The position numbers and the translations under genes are program-made. Of a DNA stretch of 64,000 nucleotides, positions 17,380-64,000 are shown piece by piece. The DNA comes from Succinivibrio dextrinosolvens. GTDB lineage: Bacteria > Pseudomonadota > Gammaproteobacteria > Enterobacterales > Succinivibrionaceae. The number at the start of each line of letters is the position of its first letter. The first letter of the stretch is position 1. The notes beneath the pieces are model-generated. The model was given only the letters and a program-made list of their open reading frames with translations. It searched no databases and had not been told where the DNA came from. The stretch covers positions 2,688,747 to 2,752,746 of the forward strand of contig NZ_CP047056.1 of assembly GCF_011065405.1 (NCBI RefSeq), given 5' to 3'.

Positions 17380-17895
17380 ATGTCAGTAGGTGCAATTTCA
17401 ACTTCAAATGTAAATGCAATCAAGGGTACCGAGTTCGAGGGCATGTCCATCCAGATGATGGCTGCTATGGTTATGTTAGAGGTTGGCGCCACCAAGAAGA
17501 AAGAAGCAGAAATGAAGATTTCAGACATGAAGGCTCAGAATGACAAAGCAAAGGCTCTGAATAATCTTCTTGACAAGATGAATTCTGAGCTTGGTGCTAT
17601 TACCAAGGATGAAGATAAAGATAAGGCTGCAAGAATGGCAATTTTAATTAGGTACAGTGCAGAAGCTAAAGGCTTAGGTATTGATGTATCTGGCTGGAAT
17701 TCTCCTAAGTCTGCTGAGCAGATCCGTGCTATTTCTTCAACCATTCAGCATATGGCAGAGAATTGCAACTCCGACAACCAGACTCAGATGGTTAAGCTTC
17801 AGGACTTCATGGGCCAGTACAACAGCTTCGTAAGCGGTGCAAGTGATCAGATTAAGAACGCAAATCAGATCCTGCAGGGACTGGCAAAGAACTAG
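17380..17895 (+). CDS. small alpha-helical protein, copy A; possible type III secretion filament/translocator relative
   Basis: A 171-residue protein with no signal peptide. After a polar start comes a methionine-rich hydrophobic helix (SIQMMAAMVMLEVGA, ~residues 22-36), a charged coiled-coil (~37-75), a variable middle, and a C-terminal helix (~116-171). The layout, and the C-terminal pattern LQDFMGQYNSFVSGASDQIK, recall EspA/SseB-type T3SS filament or translocator proteins, but this is a weak resemblance and no T3SS genes are in the window. A second copy at 62203-62763 (minus) has an identical C-terminal ~52 residues and the same 12 bases before the ATG (GAGGTAACGATT). Confidence 0.7.
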   Translation: MSVGAISTSNVNAIKGTEFEGMSIQMMAAMVMLEVGATKKKEAEMKISDMKAQNDKAKALNNLLDKMNSELGAITKDEDKDKAARMAILIRYSAEAKGLGIDVSGWNSPKSAEQIRAISSTIQHMAENCNSDNQTQMVKLQDFMGQYNSFVSGASDQIKNANQILQGLAKN

Positions 17896-20900: not shown

Positions 20901-22817
20901 GTAACTGCTCAGACCCCCCCTTAAATTAAAACTTTCTCAGTTTCGCCTTTGAAAGCGAGAGCCAATGCTTCGAATGCATTTATGCCATGCTTCTTGGCGG
21001 TGCTGAGATAGGATGTAATCTTCAGGTAGGTCTGAGCTCCAGCCTTTGTACGAAAACATCCTGAAACCTTTGCTTTAGTCTTTACATTGCGTAAGTCTCT
21101 CTCCGCCTGATTGTTATCAAATGGAACCAGGAAATTATGTATAAACAGACACACCGAATCCTTAAGCTTAATCAGCCTGTCTATTAAGGCTCTTTCCTTG
21201 CCTTTCTTCTTTTTTCCTCGTTTTTTAGGCTCTATCTTATCCGGAGGTGGACATTCCATATTGGCATAAGCCATAATTTCGTCATACTCATGCTCAAGAG
21301 CTTTTATTAGATTCTCTCTTAACTCTGTTTTACCTTCTTCTATAGCCTGTTCTTTTGCGGTTTTCATGGTTATAAGAAGAGTCTTGAGTCTTTCCGCCCA
21401 CACATGTTTTGGATTATTCTCAATATTGGCTATAAGTTCTCTTAACAGATGAGCGCAGCAGACAGCATGGAGAATATCTTTGAATTTCCAGTAGGCGCCC
21501 CAGCAGTCATGGACTGCAGTTCCACCGAAATTCTGAATTACACCATTATCTTCTATGCCTTCCTGTCCTCGTTTCTTATTAACGGTAAGATAGGTGTATT
21601 TAGCATTGGATGAGTTATGTACCCACTGTGTAGAGCCTTCGACTCTGACACCGGTTTCATCGAAGTTAACAACAGAAGAGCCAATCAGCAGTTCTTTGAT
21701 TTTCTCTACTATCGGTGTTACCTTTTGTCCGCATTTTTCTACCATTGAACAGATAGTGCCCTCTGACAGAGTTACACTAAACATTCCATCAATGATAGTC
21801 TGAATTCTTTCAGTACTTACTGCACCAAAGGTGCTGAGAAGACCAGCCATTGCAGTAAAGGTATCTCCATACTGAACATAGGCTTTAACCTCTTCAGGGA
21901 ATTCTCCTTTAAGTTTGCTTTCGCCACATGGACAGGCAACTGCCTTTAAACTCTGATGCTCGATTACCTTTGTGGTTACAACTGCTTCAACAATAAATCT
22001 CTTTTCCCCGCACTCAAATACATTTCCGTTTGCAACGCATGAGGCAAAATGTGGACAGGTCATACATTTATTGGGATGATGTTTCTTTACCTCATCAGGC
22101 TTATGTGGTACCTCCATGTTCGCTCCACTGTGTCCTTTCTGCCCGCCTGGCTTTCTGCCTGTTGGTTTTCTCAGACTTCTTGCCTTATTTGGCTTCTTAT
22201 AACCATCACTTGATGGTGGTTTTGAACTGTTATGGGAATCCATATTTAACTGTCTGCGCAGGTCTTTTATGGTTTCCTGCAGATCGATGATGGTATTAGT
22301 CAAGCGCTCATTCTGCACCATAATACCTGTACTTGTTTCAAGCATAATGCTGAAAAGGAATGAAAGAGAATCAACGAGTACAGCAGTGTCACCTGAAGCT
22401 TTACTTTTAAGCTCCTTTGTTATCTGCTCAACCTGCTTTTTCAGTTCCTTTAAATCCACAGCAAATCCCTGATTGTTACTATTACTGATGTAATTATAAC
22501 ATCCTGAATTTCAGCACTTTTCGTCATAGAAATCAGAGGTACACCATGTGCTTCAAAACGATCGAGAAGGATCTGATCAGATCGCTACAGATCGATTGGC
22601 AGTCAAAATGACAAAACAAAGCACTTCAAAACAACATCGCTGTATTCGCGTTATATGAGCAATATGGGCTATTCCTGGTAAATGCAAAGAAAAAAGCATT
22701 TTGATTAGGAATGTGAGACAATTCACAATGTAAATTCTAAAAGAACAATCTGACTGTAAAAGTCAGTCAAAATACTCAAAACAATTTTTGGCTTATGCTA
22801 CCGTTCTGAGTAGTTAC
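20901..22817 (-). mobile_element. complete IS66-family insertion sequence (single-transposase, ISBst12-like type)
   Basis: A 1,917-bp element. Its ends are imperfect inverted repeats that both begin GTAACT(G/A)CTCAGA: + strand from 20901, minus strand from 22817. IS66 ends typically begin GTAA. It is flanked by the identical octamer CTTTTTCT on both sides. Only the tnpC-type transposase is present, with no tnpA/tnpB accessory genes, as in the ISBst12 subgroup. The 358 bases between the transposase start and the right end hold no convincing gene. Intact ends and duplication suggest a fairly recent insertion. Confidence 0.92.
20921..22459 (-). CDS. tnpC: IS66-family transposase
   Basis: Transposase of 512 residues with a GTG start. 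Domains in order: an N-terminal coiled coil (~1-90), a HNSSKPPSSDGYKKP motif and basic linker (~95-130), a zinc-finger region with paired cysteines (CMTCPHFASC, later ACPCG) at ~133-185, then the DDE core with DETGV, the HDCWGAYW aspartate and NNQAERDLR glutamate, and a short C-terminal tail. All three acidic residues and the full length are retained, so it is probably active. Confidence 0.95.
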   Translation of the reverse strand: MDLKELKKQVEQITKELKSKASGDTAVLVDSLSFLFSIMLETSTGIMVQNERLTNTIIDLQETIKDLRRQLNMDSHNSSKPPSSDGYKKPNKARSLRKPTGRKPGGQKGHSGANMEVPHKPDEVKKHHPNKCMTCPHFASCVANGNVFECGEKRFIVEAVVTTKVIEHQSLKAVACPCGESKLKGEFPEEVKAYVQYGDTFTAMAGLLSTFGAVSTERIQTIIDGMFSVTLSEGTICSMVEKCGQKVTPIVEKIKELLIGSSVVNFDETGVRVEGSTQWVHNSSNAKYTYLTVNKKRGQEGIEDNGVIQNFGGTAVHDCWGAYWKFKDILHAVCCAHLLRELIANIENNPKHVWAERLKTLLITMKTAKEQAIEEGKTELRENLIKALEHEYDEIMAYANMECPPPDKIEPKKRGKKKKGKERALIDRLIKLKDSVCLFIHNFLVPFDNNQAERDLRNVKTKAKVSGCFRTKAGAQTYLKITSYLSTAKKHGINAFEALALAFKGETEKVLI

Positions 22818-51150: not shown

Positions 51151-52380
51151 TTGGAGAAAACTGTTTTGATATTTACAAAAACATTAAAAATAAGAATTAA
51201 TGTACCTTCAGAACAGGAAACACTGTTACGTCAGATGACGGAGCAGTATCGACAGGCATGTAATTTTATTTCAGAATACGTTTTTACCCATTCCTTTGAC
51301 CTGAACTTCTTCAGTCTCAATAAAGTACTGTACAGGGATATAAGAGGAAAGTTTAGACTTAAATCTCAGCTTGCACAGTCATCCATCAAAACAGTTATTG
51401 CAAGATATAAAACTGTAAAAGAACAGCTTTTAGAGCATCCATACCGCTATAAAGACGAGAAAGGCGAATGGCAGAGCATACCAAAGACACTGGAATGGCT
51501 TTTTAAGCCTGTGTATTTCAGCAGACCTCAGACAGATTTGGTTCGCAACAGAGATTACAGTTTTGTTGAAAATGGAAGTCTGTTATCAATCAATACTCTT
51601 GATGAAAGAATCAAATGTACTTATGAGAGAAAACATTTCAAAGAATATTTTGATGGCAGCTGGAGATTTGGAACAGCGAAGCTTGTGGAACTTAACGGCC
51701 TATGGTATCTGCATATTCCTGTAACCAGAGAAAAAGAAGATTTCAAAAAAGAGAAAGTAAAACATATAGTGGGAATAGACAGAGGCTTACGCTTTCTGTC
51801 TGTAAGCTATGATGAAGAAGGAAAGACCGAATTTATAAGCGGAAAGAAGATTGCAACAAAGCGAAACAAATTCCTTGAGCTGAGACGAGAGCTTCAGGCT
51901 AAAGGAACAAAATCAGCAAGACGAAGACTAAAAGCTATATCCGGACGAGAAAACCGCTGGATGTCAGATGTAAACCATCAGATATCAAAGACACTCGTGA
52001 GGAAGTATGGCAAAGATACACTCTTTGTTCTTGAGGATTTAACCGGTGTAAGTTTTGATGAGCGCAATCTTTCAAGAACAGAAAAACAGAGATATGACCT
52101 AAGAAGCTGGAGCTTCTACCAGCTGGAGCAGTTTCTAAAATACAAAGCTCAAGAGACGGGCTCTGAAGTACTTAGGGTAAGTGCAAAATACACATCTCAG
52201 AGATGTCCCGTATGTGGAAAGATCCACAAACAGAGCAGAGACCATAACAGACATCTGTATAGCTGCCCATGCGGCTATAAATCCAATGATGACAGAGTTG
52301 GAGCCATGAATATTCAGAATCTTGGAAAGAGATGGCTGTCAGGAGAAAAGAATCCTAGATACAAAAAGGATAATAACTGA
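51151..52380 (+). CDS. tnpB: TnpB RNA-guided endonuclease (IS200/IS605 family)
   Basis: A 409-residue TnpB. The RuvC-like active site is complete: HIVGIDRGLRFLSVSYDEEG (Asp, ~residues 207-226), FVLEDLTGVSF (Glu, ~292-302) and SNDDRVGAMNIQNLG (Asp, ~380-394). A zinc finger with CPVCG and SCPCGY lies between. No AUG fits; TTG at 51151 (or a second TTG at 51166) gives the usual N-terminus TKTLKIRI. Homologues are guided by an RNA made from the element's 3' end, and the 130 bases after the stop look structured enough for that. Confidence 0.93.
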   Translation: MEKTVLIFTKTLKIRINVPSEQETLLRQMTEQYRQACNFISEYVFTHSFDLNFFSLNKVLYRDIRGKFRLKSQLAQSSIKTVIARYKTVKEQLLEHPYRYKDEKGEWQSIPKTLEWLFKPVYFSRPQTDLVRNRDYSFVENGSLLSINTLDERIKCTYERKHFKEYFDGSWRFGTAKLVELNGLWYLHIPVTREKEDFKKEKVKHIVGIDRGLRFLSVSYDEEGKTEFISGKKIATKRNKFLELRRELQAKGTKSARRRLKAISGRENRWMSDVNHQISKTLVRKYGKDTLFVLEDLTGVSFDERNLSRTEKQRYDLRSWSFYQLEQFLKYKAQETGSEVLRVSAKYTSQRCPVCGKIHKQSRDHNRHLYSCPCGYKSNDDRVGAMNIQNLGKRWLSGEKNPRYKKDNN

Positions 52381-60942: not shown

Positions 60943-61902
60943 ATGAAAGTTGCAGTTTTAGGTGCAGCAGGCGGTATTGGCCAGCCTTTATCAATGATTT
61001 TAAAGAATTCATTACCAGCAGGTTCAAAGCTGGGGTTATTTGACGTTGCACCATTTACCCCTGGTGTTGCGGTTGATCTAAGCCACATCCCAACAGACGT
61101 TGAGGTTCAGGGTTACACTGGCGACGACCTTCCAAAGGCTTTAGAAGGTGCTGACGTTGTTGTAATTCCAGCTGGTGTTGCTCGTAAGCCAGGTATGACC
61201 CGTGATGACCTGTTTAACATCAATGCTGGTATCATTGCTAACTTAGTTCGCAACTGTGCCCGTGTATGTCCAAAGGCATGCATCTGCATCATTACCAACC
61301 CAGTTAACTCAACTGTACCTCTAGCAGCTGAAGTTCTAAAGGCCGAGGGGGTATATGATAAGCACCGTCTGTTTGGTATTTCTGCTCTTGACGTTCTACG
61401 TTCAGAGACTTTCTTAGCTGCTGAGCTTGGTATCTCTAACCAGAGAATCCTTGTTCCAGTAATCGGAGGACACTCAGGTACCACTATTATTCCTCTATTA
61501 TCAAAGGTTATCGGTCACGAGAAGATTGCTGATGATCGTATCCAGGCTTTAACCGCTCGTATCCAGAACGCTGGTACTGAAGTTGTTGAGGCTAAGGCCG
61601 GTGCAGGTTCTGCAACCCTATCAATGGCTACAGCTGGTGCACGTTTTGCTCTTAAGGTTGTTAAGGGCTTAATGGGTGAGCCAGGCGTTAATGAGTATGC
61701 TTATGTAGAAGGCGGTTCAAAGGTTGCTCCATTCTTTGCTCAGGCAGTTCGTTTCGGTAAGAATGGCTGGGATGAAGTTATCGACTACGGTACCGTTTCA
61801 GCTTACGAGCAGAGGTTAATTGATGAGGCTGCTCCTCAGTTAGCAACCAACATCAAGAAGGGTGTTGATTTTGCTCAGAAGTGGTTATCAGAGAACAAGT
61901 AA
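60943..61902 (+). CDS. mdh: NAD-dependent malate dehydrogenase
   Basis: Cytoplasmic dehydrogenase of 319 residues interconverting malate and oxaloacetate. It starts [20 protein letters not shown] (Rossmann fold), with [19 protein letters not shown], the substrate loop arginines, and the catalytic histidine in [16 protein letters not shown]. In succinate-forming anaerobes it runs toward malate. AcnB precedes it as a separate transcription unit. Confidence 0.97.
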
Positions 61903-61940
61903 TCTGATAAATCTGATATTGTGATTCTGTAATGGATCAT

Positions 61941-61983
61941 AAAAAGGCTCTGATTGATACAAATATCATCAGAGCTTTTTATT
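61941..61983 (+). terminator. Rho-independent terminator after mdh
   Basis: GGCTCTGAT pairs with ATCAGAGC and runs into TTTTTATTT. Confidence 0.85.
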
Positions 61984-62063
61984 TGTTTTTGTAAATTTCT
62001 CTCGCTATTCTGATAAAAGCTTCCATTGCAGATGTTTTATATTTATTTTTTTTGTATGAAATC

Positions 62064-62185
62064 ATACCTAGGGGGTTAAGCATTTTTAACCACCCTAATG
62101 TTATTCATACTGACGATCTTCCCAATTAAAGTCGGGAGATCTTTCAGTAACCGTAAATCTCTCTTGCTAGGAGAGGTTCAACAAC
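62064..62185 (-). repeat. 122-bp inverted repeat, left copy
   Basis: This stretch is the reverse complement of 63069-63190 with only two mismatches in 122 bases. It lies 17 bases past the stop of copy B. The unit has three potential stems: CTCTC/GAGAG, GATCTCCC/GGGAAGATC, and a terminal AGGG(T/G)GG-type stem around TTAA. Such multiple imperfect hairpins resemble IS200/IS605-derived non-autonomous ends, but no related transposase end in this window matches it. Confidence 0.93.
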
Positions 62186-62202
62186 ATGCATTAGTCCACT
62201 TA

Positions 62203-62763
62203 CTAATTCTTTGCCAGGCCCTGCAGGATCTGATTTGCGTTCTTGATCTGATCACTTGCACCACTTACGAAGCTGTTATACTGGCCCATGAAGTCCTGCA
62301 GCTTAACCATTTGGGTCTGATTATCGGAGTTGCAGTTCTCCGCCATGTGCTGAATCTGGGAGGTTATGGCTCTTATCTGTTCAGCTGTTTTGCCTTTGAA
62401 CGTATATTTCTCTACACCATTGTTTAATTCATACTTTGAGAATTCCCAATTGGAGGTATCTACACCAAGAGCTCTGGCTTCAAGATAAAACTGACCAAGA
62501 ATCTCACCTCTCTTTTTTTTATCATCATCCTCATCTTTTGTATAAGCACCAAGCTGAGCATTCATTCTGTCAAGCAGATTATTCAGCTGCTTGGCTCTGT
62601 CATTCTGAGCCTTCATTTCAGCAATCTTAAATTCAGCTTCTTTCTTCTTGGTTGCACCAACCTCAAGCATAACCATGGCAGCCATCATCTGGATGGACAT
62701 CCCCTCGAACTCAGTTCCCTTGATTGCATTGATACTTGAAGTTGAAATACCTGTTACTGACAT
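62203..62763 (-). CDS. small alpha-helical protein, copy B; possible type III secretion filament/translocator relative
   Basis: A 186-residue protein, paralogue of the gene at 17380. Residues ~14-43 (GTEFEGMSIQMMAAMVMLEV... ) and the last ~52 residues are identical to copy A, while the middle differs and carries a ~12-15-residue insertion (YELNNGVEKYTFKG). It has no signal peptide and long helices with coiled-coil character. The ribosome region GAGGTAACGATT and promoter boxes match copy A. It is the only gene between the two 122-bp inverted repeats. The function is unknown; a T3SS-like surface filament is the best guess. Confidence 0.7.
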   Translation of the reverse strand: MSVTGISTSSINAIKGTEFEGMSIQMMAAMVMLEVGATKKKEAEFKIAEMKAQNDRAKQLNNLLDRMNAQLGAYTKDEDDDKKKRGEILGQFYLEARALGVDTSNWEFSKYELNNGVEKYTFKGKTAEQIRAITSQIQHMAENCNSDNQTQMVKLQDFMGQYNSFVSGASDQIKNANQILQGLAKN

Positions 62764-62853
62764 AATCGTTACCTCATAGTTTACTGACTCGTTTAATAAA
62801 AGCTGTGAATTAAATCTTTCTAACCAGATACCTTTCGTTTTCTCTTTTACTTA

Positions 62854-62884
62854 AGTATAAGACAGAAATTCTAGAAAGATGTAA
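62854..62884 (-). promoter_or_regulatory. predicted promoter of copy B, conserved with copy A
   Basis: On the minus strand TTACAT (62884-62879), 19 bases, TATACT (62859-62854). Flanks AAAAGTAGTT and TTAAGT are shared with copy A. The whole promoter lies inside the inverted-repeat unit. Confidence 0.55.
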
Positions 62885-63068
62885 CTACTTTTAAATATAA
62901 AAGCATAATTTTTTAAAGTTGATTTGCATATCACACAATTCTATTTATTTATTACTACTTTATAAAAATATAGTTACATGAATTTCATTATTGTTAAATC
63001 ATGCCTAAGATCTAAAGACATTAGGCTAACACCTTATAAAAATGCAGTTTGTTCGCCATCGCATTTTT

Positions 63069-63190
63069 GTTGTAGAACCTCTCCTAGCAAGAGAGATTTA
63101 CGGTTACTGAAAGATCTCCCGACTTTAATTGGGAAGATCGTCAGTATGAATAACATTAGGGTGGTTAAAAATGCTTAACACCCTAGGTAT
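63069..63190 (+). repeat. 122-bp inverted repeat, right copy
   Basis: Partner of 62064-62185. The three stems are at 63079-63095, 63113-63139 and 63158-63184. Just beyond it, 63212-63227 repeats GGGGGTTAAGCATTTT, which matches 62071-62086 in the left copy in the same orientation. The space from here to motX holds a TATAAT at 63336-63341 and no other feature I can name. Confidence 0.93.
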
Positions 63191-63373
63191 GCTATATAAG
63201 CATATGTGTATGGGGGTTAAGCATTTTATTTGTGTGCTTTATTAAATATTTTTGAAATTCTGCCGTAAATAAATATGGGACATGAGTTTTTTGGTTTTCA
63301 GAGAGATCTGAAGATTTGTTTTTGTTTATATGTTCTATAATTAGTAAATAAAGTTAAGCTTGGGAGGAAACTG

Positions 63374-64000
63374 ATGGTTAAATACACTAAGTTTAGTGCA
63401 ATGGCACTGGCCCTTGGCTTAACTATCTATTCTTATTCAGGAGATACTTTTGCAGCCAAGTATGAGGTAGTTACCTCCACAAGAGCAATGGTTGCTAGAG
63501 ATACTTTGTCTAGTATCGATTTTAGTGGGCTTTCCAATTCAGCTCCCAATGCCAATACTGAAATGTATTCTCCTGATAAAATGAACTCTATCATTGAAAA
63601 CAGTCGACTTGTTGCTGTTGTAAGAGATCAGGATAGATGCCAGTTTACAGCCGATATTGAAGATCGCGCTCGTATTGTTAAAAGTCCTGTGTTCATGTAT
63701 GCCTGGGGGCAGATGCTTATGTCTGGAATCTGCGTTCGTGAGGATAAGGAATTAGGCTTAGGCTATATTCGACACTCCGCTGATGATGGCTATGCTCCAG
63801 CAATGATGCAGATGTCCGTATTCTATGAACGTGGTTCAGGTATGGGAAAAAGTCTTAATATGTCCGAGCGGTATATGCATACAGCCGCTGCATTAGGATC
63901 AAAGACGGCTAGATTGAATTGGGCGGATATGCTTATCCGTGGTTTTGGATCTCCTTCTCTATATGAAGAAGCTTATGGCTGGCTTTATCACTGTGACTTC
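63374..64000 (+). CDS. motX: sodium-driven flagellar motor protein MotX (partial, cut by window end)
   Basis: The first 209 residues of a secreted protein; the frame is open to the last base. A signal peptide ends near DTFA before AKYEV. The mature part has Sel1-type repeats and aligns with Vibrio/Aeromonas MotX in CQFTADIEDRARI, SPVFMYAWGQMLMSGICVREDKELGLGYI and ADMLIRGFGSP ... EEAYGWLYHC. MotX joins MotY in the T-ring that lets PomA/PomB stators assemble. GGGAGGAAA precedes the ATG. It implies a polar, sodium-driven flagellum. Confidence 0.88.
   Translation, partial: MVKYTKFSAMALALGLTIYSYSGDTFAAKYEVVTSTRAMVARDTLSSIDFSGLSNSAPNANTEMYSPDKMNSIIENSRLVAVVRDQDRCQFTADIEDRARIVKSPVFMYAWGQMLMSGICVREDKELGLGYIRHSADDGYAPAMMQMSVFYERGSGMGKSLNMSERYMHTAAALGSKTARLNWADMLIRGFGSPSLYEEAYGWLYHCDF

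Follow-up and report, generated by a model that had tools for sequence, protein, structure and literature searches.

A T3SS filament-like gene between putative outward-facing IS4-family right ends in Succinivibrio dextrinosolvens

In the stretch of Succinivibrio dextrinosolvens DNA analysed here (the window; 64,000 nucleotides), a single gene in the spacer next to mdh is enclosed by two sequences that are near-perfect reverse complements of each other. This arrangement raises the question of what the repeated sequence is, and of how the gene came to lie between its two copies. The first-pass annotation of the window had offered three answers, namely a non-autonomous mobile unit, a pair of palindromic elements that had captured a gene, or a DNA segment that inverts by recombination.

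Geometry of the inverted repeat and identity of its arms

A repeat search placed the arms at positions 62063-62186 and 63068-63191, each 124 nt long, 98% complementary and spaced 881 nt apart, and a script comparison located the two mismatches between them at 62074 and 62180. The longest exact inverted match was 105 nt; when the 61500-64000 region was dinucleotide-shuffled 100 times, none exceeded 20 nt. The near-perfect 122-bp inverted repeat reported in the first-pass annotation is therefore real and far beyond chance, but its limits, given there as 62064-62185 and 63069-63190, are corrected to those above, and the right-hand element is longer, extending over 63000-63191. As had also been reported, one gene is enclosed (ORF 62203-62763, minus strand, 186 aa); what stands of the enclosed promoter is that the conserved region upstream of the gene lies inside the arms.

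A search of the genome and its relatives for further copies of the 122-bp unit, which had been suggested as a check, placed it at five sites in the same genome (G000, one contig of 3,468,545 bp), comprising the two arms, L003 (96% identity), L004 (88%) and L005 (69%, a weak partial match). The unit was present in 4 of the 40 genomes searched, this one included. At L004, a transposase frame that is open over 470 codons, counted from ATG, has this unit as its 3' end. The predicted protein scored 49.4 bits against PF01609 (DDE_Tnp_1; Pfam cut-off 23) and 85 bits against the NCBIfam IS4 model NF033592, which is below the cut-off of 115 bits, and it includes a complete YREK motif, Y-(2)-R-(3)-E-(6)-K, at residue 329. 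YREK is given as a hallmark of the IS4 family (PMC2266710), and L004 encodes a DDE transposase in one frame with this motif, as is expected for that family. An uninterrupted transposase gene of the arms' insertion sequence (IS) is thus present elsewhere in the genome; there is only one full-length close transposase gene, and the right-end tip of its IS differs in the last bases. Right ends that continue into more of the transposase gene were found in two related genomes, G011 (two of them) and G012, and a third, G004, has a diverged right end.

The left boundary of the IS, CATGCCTAAG, was obtained by aligning the full IS at L018 with a second, truncated copy at L019, the two being identical in 774 of 813 alignment columns. 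No copy of the parent IS with both ends intact was found, the contigs of the draft genomes ending inside the IS. When the window was scanned for the tip pattern CATRCCTARG, three occurrences were detected, at exactly 62063, 63000 and 63191, a number reached in 2 of 100 shuffles. The outer edges of the arms, 62063 and 63191, coincide exactly with IS tips. In both the left end (LE) and the right end (RE), the tip has CAT and, at positions 15-17, TAA, and lacks AA at positions 11-12. The fit to the IS231 pattern (CAT-------AA--TAA---) is hence partial, and the looser ISH8 pattern (CAT-----------T-----), both as listed in Table 1 of PMC2266710, is matched. These comparisons identify the inverted repeat as a pair of outward-facing right ends, putatively of one IS4-family (IS231/ISH8-like) insertion sequence.

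The two arms differ in what is attached to them. On the right, an LE of the same IS (63000-63068, plus strand; 86-90% identical to the LE of L018 and L019), with its tip at 63000, runs directly into the RE of copy B (63069-63191, plus strand), the tip of which faces outward, to the right, at 63191. Copy B thus amounts to an internally deleted IS of 192 bp that retains the tips of both ends. The ORF 62978-63178 ends in a transposase-like peptide; the end of the transposase frame has survived in copy B. Among the 19 genomes of the genus, the LE-RE fusion was found in the window only, and the other matches listed cover one end.

On the left, copy A (62063-62186, minus strand) is an RE alone, with no attached LE. 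It is 98% identical to copy B, has the sequence with which the full IS (L004/L018) terminates on its 3' side, and bears the tip pattern facing outward, to the left, at 62063. Its inner edge meets the 3' flank of the enclosed gene at a short common sequence, which reads GCATGTTGTTGAACCT on the minus strand (62174-62189). In a comparison of the 3' flanks of 16 distinct paralogs of this gene (18 rows, two pairs of which are the same DNA), a related stretch followed the stop codon in five, as GCATGTTGT[A/T]GA[A/G]CCT in L009, L086, L087 and L088 and in a diverged version in L091; at the matching spot, the RE of the IS reads GTTGTAGAACCT. Copy A would most likely once have been a second miniature element, the LE of which was lost by deletion between short near-repeats. 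Such a deletion would explain why the internal position of the IS at which the arm begins is identical in the two copies, and this common start, together with their 98% identity, suggests that both derive from one source.

The enclosed gene and its family

The passenger gene (62203-62763, minus strand) is predicted to encode a T3SS filament/needle-like protein, and it keeps native sequence on both inner sides, between the IS ends. Its own upstream region (62764-62980, minus strand) is common to its paralogs, BLAST alignments with several paralog loci reaching ~62973-62996. The protein is similar to T3SS needle and EspA-type filament proteins in that it appears to form long helices with a beta hairpin, gives weak model matches, and has a relative beside the T3SS cluster of the genome, a 263-aa member of the filament family (L181:4078-4869). 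However, the matches lie below the curated cut-offs of all three needle and filament profiles (PF09392, 22.1 bits against 29.4; EspA, 12.9 against 23.4; TIGR02105, 15.9 bits against 41.7), and the gene is one of several paralogs in this Succinivibrio, with several near-identical copies scattered over the chromosome. A PDB sequence search with a 17-member profile gave four matches (best E 0.81), none of them relevant, and nothing evidently related was found in the literature on Succinivibrio with needle and EspA. The same genome encodes a T3SS, with SctV, SctU, SctC, SctD and SctX over their cut-offs.

As judged by a dN/dS ratio of 0.10 against the copies in strain DSM 3072, the passenger is under purifying selection. 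Its dS against the same copies, 0.31-0.32, is near the value of 0.35 for mdh compared with G010. The passenger, a paralog within a T3SS filament-type family, looks functional and retains its own upstream region.

Further members of the family and sequences near them were recorded. A second filament paralog of 171 aa is present in the window (17380-17895, plus strand), at a locus shared with S. dextrinosolvens ACV-10 and DSM 3072 (L082, L090); it is one example of copies whose loci are the same in different genomes. In the upstream block of the filament genes (window positions 62820-62980 and the paralogs), TGTAGTTACA-like boxes were seen by eye and may represent a common regulator site. Just 3' of filament genes is a stretch of ~80 bp that begins with CTGCATGTTGT and, in some copies, ends with ACAACATGCAG. 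It adjoins a filament gene at all six places where it occurs, in 4 of the 19 genus genomes (examples are L087:5517-5620 and G000:C1:1101586-1101671), and may be a small gene, a terminator or a miniature element. Short palindromes resembling the left tip of the IS, CATGCCTAA...TTAGGCATG, were observed at L139:1500-1530 (G000:C1:583016) and in L013 (1400-1900); a decayed filament paralog neighbours one of these palindromes.

The family is not evenly retained between close relatives. At the CheW locus, an intact close relative (L080) is present in DSM 3072, and a decayed fragment is all that is present in the genome studied here. At the symporter locus, DSM 3072 has the other close relative (L081), and the genome studied here is without ~5.2 kb, with ~10 bp shared at the joint. 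Neither RE nor LE was detected at E 1e-4 at the 13 paralog loci L080-L092, with flanks of up to 5 kb. Filament paralogs have been gained and lost, mostly without the arms' IS, and their locations differ between close relatives. Two of the four RE sites in the genome (L003, L004, L005, and copies A and B counted as one) adjoin a filament-family gene, and this association is read as clustering in accessory regions. At L003, the RE remnant (L003:1501-1629; G000:C1:2166556 region) is followed, ~300 bp downstream, by a filament-family gene of 259 aa (1932-2711), and a broken ORF pair between the two, which by eye resembles another transposase, gave no Pfam match.

The insertion site and the origin of the block

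A comparison of orthologous mdh-motX intergenic regions for an empty site had been proposed, and such a site was found: in the three closest relatives that were aligned (G004, G010 and G011), the spacer from mdh to the Sel1-like gene does not contain the block. A match to mdh was present in 17 of the 19 genus genomes, the genome studied here included, and the site was compared in G004, G010, G011, G012, G002 and G013. The mdh-Sel1 spacers of G012 and G002 are also short, and the downstream region of G013 has different DNA. Alignment of the G010 spacer with the window ends at 61988 and resumes at 63239, and G010 has six bases in the interval, which indicates that the stretches left of copy A (61990-62062) and right of copy B (63192-63238) are also extra DNA. 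The DNA absent in relatives thus exceeds the tips by about 73 bp on the left and 47 bp on the right. On the right, positions 63212-63227 match the RE tip at 15 of 16 nt, in the orientation of copy A. No relative of 61990-62062 was found among the DNA compared. Window positions 61982-62038 (minus strand), absent from the G010 spacer, read as the end of a peptide, KTSAMEAFIRIAREIYKNK, followed by a stop; a source gene was not found among the DNA compared, and the peptide may be similar to the C-terminal end of LysR-type regulators.

The IS231/ISH8 group generates target duplications of about 10-12 bp. At this site, no duplication of 4-14 nt was found around the whole unit, around copy B, or between the LE of copy B and the flank of copy A.

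The block is probably a decayed, non-autonomous structure like a mobile insertion cassette (MIC), in which outward IS ends enclose the filament gene and whose arrival in the mdh-Sel1 spacer was mediated by these ends. We infer the following order of events. Two copies of the internally deleted IS, with LE joined to RE, would have flanked the gene, one on each side. Copy A would then have been trimmed: recombination across two 12-nt sequences that are almost identical would have deleted its LE, together with most of a short element that follows the gene. The block would have entered the spacer in this lineage via rearrangement or transposition mediated by the IS ends, and the full-length transposase of the genome might still act on it in trans. 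Against this explanation count the lack of a target duplication, the DNA beyond the tips that the relatives lack, and the finding of the LE-RE and RE-gene-RE arrangements each once in the 19 genus genomes. Both outer ends of the block are REs rather than an LE plus an RE, and the transposase falls under the cut-off of the IS4 model and belongs to an IS with a differing RE tip.

Some of these same observations would be expected if the gene and the IS copies had arrived separately, the gene reaching the spacer by homologous or illegitimate recombination and the IS copies inserting later on both sides and decaying, with their inverted arrangement due to chance. The missing target duplication, and the extra DNA outside both tips with its third scrap of an RE tip, resemble a spacer that has been collecting IS copies, and paralogs elsewhere have been gained and lost without the arms' IS. 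However, the single source suggested by the likeness of copies A and B and by their common internal start, and the way in which the passenger and its native flanks fill the space between the ends, make separate arrival somewhat unlikely.

That the 1129-bp unit (62063-63191) is a still mobile cassette, transposing on its two REs with a transposase supplied in trans, is quite improbable. Both outer tips match IS tips exactly and the genome has an open transposase frame, but the unit is present in a single copy, lacks a target duplication, and is smaller than the inserted DNA. Of the non-autonomous mobile unit first proposed, the kind of element is upheld by the IS4-family right ends with intact-looking tips, the passenger and the absence in three relatives; its transposition as a unit is not, given the missing duplication, the extra DNA outside and the single copy.

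The invertible segment, in which recombination between the arms would flip the gene, has very little probability. Arms of 124 nt at 98% identity could support homologous recombination, and rare inversion by this route may occur. Yet the conserved upstream region lies inside the arms and would turn with the gene, so that inversion would not directly switch the gene off, and the arms are already accounted for as IS ends. By eye, no site-specific recombinase was recognised among the 51 window ORFs of at least 100 aa, and Pfam was run on five window ORFs. The inversion option is accordingly left unsupported. The earlier statement that the window has no recombinase may hold for site-specific recombinases but not for transposases, as an IS66-family transposase (20921-22459, minus strand) and a TnpB-like ORF (OrfB_IS605 / Cas12f1-like TNB; 51151-52380, plus strand) are present in it. 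The families of both differ from that of the arms' transposase.

The idea that the arms are structured hairpins, of RNA or of DNA, with a function of their own can practically be dismissed: three stems per arm are predicted (37 pairs, -26.74 kcal/mol), as the first-pass annotation had stated, but compensatory change affects 1 of the 37 pairs, covariation contributes an unfavourable term of +1.58, and the arm sequence encodes the C-terminus of a transposase. An Rfam search of 61500-64000 up to E 1 gave one match (E 0.33), which lies at 61929-61989 and so does not fall in either arm. Conserved RNA hairpins were rejected on the weak covariation. For the palindromic elements proposed to have captured the gene, the hairpins are indeed predicted, but the DNA that would form them is an IS end in which the C-terminus of the transposase is also encoded.

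Significance and relation to known systems

The striking inverted repeat is explained if outward IS right ends, one of them in a miniature element, surround a single passenger. The locus also points to a multi-copy T3SS filament-like gene family in Succinivibrio, the locations of which differ between close relatives. Other bacteria diversify flagellins or pilins. By analogy, and as a speculation to which we assign a low probability, Succinivibrio, a gut commensal, may have a shifting repertoire of T3SS filament subunits whose helices are nearly constant and whose central region varies, in which miniature, tail-outward IS ends move single genes with their promoters to new chromosomal sites and so diversify the filament surface of the injectisome. 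Movement of filament genes by IS ends, should it occur, would provide a route to diversify the side of the machine that is exposed to other cells. The abundance of the T3SS of these rumen bacteria has been linked to methane yield in sheep, with infection called unlikely in that account (PMC5549432).

Copy B has features of IS-derived MITEs, being short (192 bp), with both IS tips and with the coding region deleted so that no transposase gene is left. It differs from them in that it is single in its own genome, with no other in the 19 genus genomes (one LE-RE match), and has no target duplication. No literature linking Succinivibrio with miniature inverted-repeat elements was found. Copy B is best described as a MITE-like element. 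The word "like" is used for both comparisons, MITE and MIC, since each fails in one of the features assessed: for the MITE, the multiple copies, and for the MIC, the usual target-site duplication, for which no match of 4-14 nt was found.

The closest likeness for the whole block is with the MIC231 mobile insertion cassettes of the Bacillus cereus group, in which IS231 ends surround a passenger gene (PMC3913671, PMC2266710). In both, a passenger is bracketed by IS-type inverted ends with IS231-like tips and without a transposase inside, a full-length matching transposase being encoded elsewhere. The present block differs from MIC231 in that both outer ends are REs, one of them within a complete miniature element, and in that it has no target duplication, is present in one copy and is at most a candidate for mobilisation. 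MICs of the TnXax1 type in Xanthomonas, as presented in PMC8453159, similarly have T3SS-related passenger genes between the inverted repeats of a transposon; in those, the ends are of the Tn3 family and the passengers are effectors, whereas here, the ends are of the IS4 family and the passenger is a filament-type gene.
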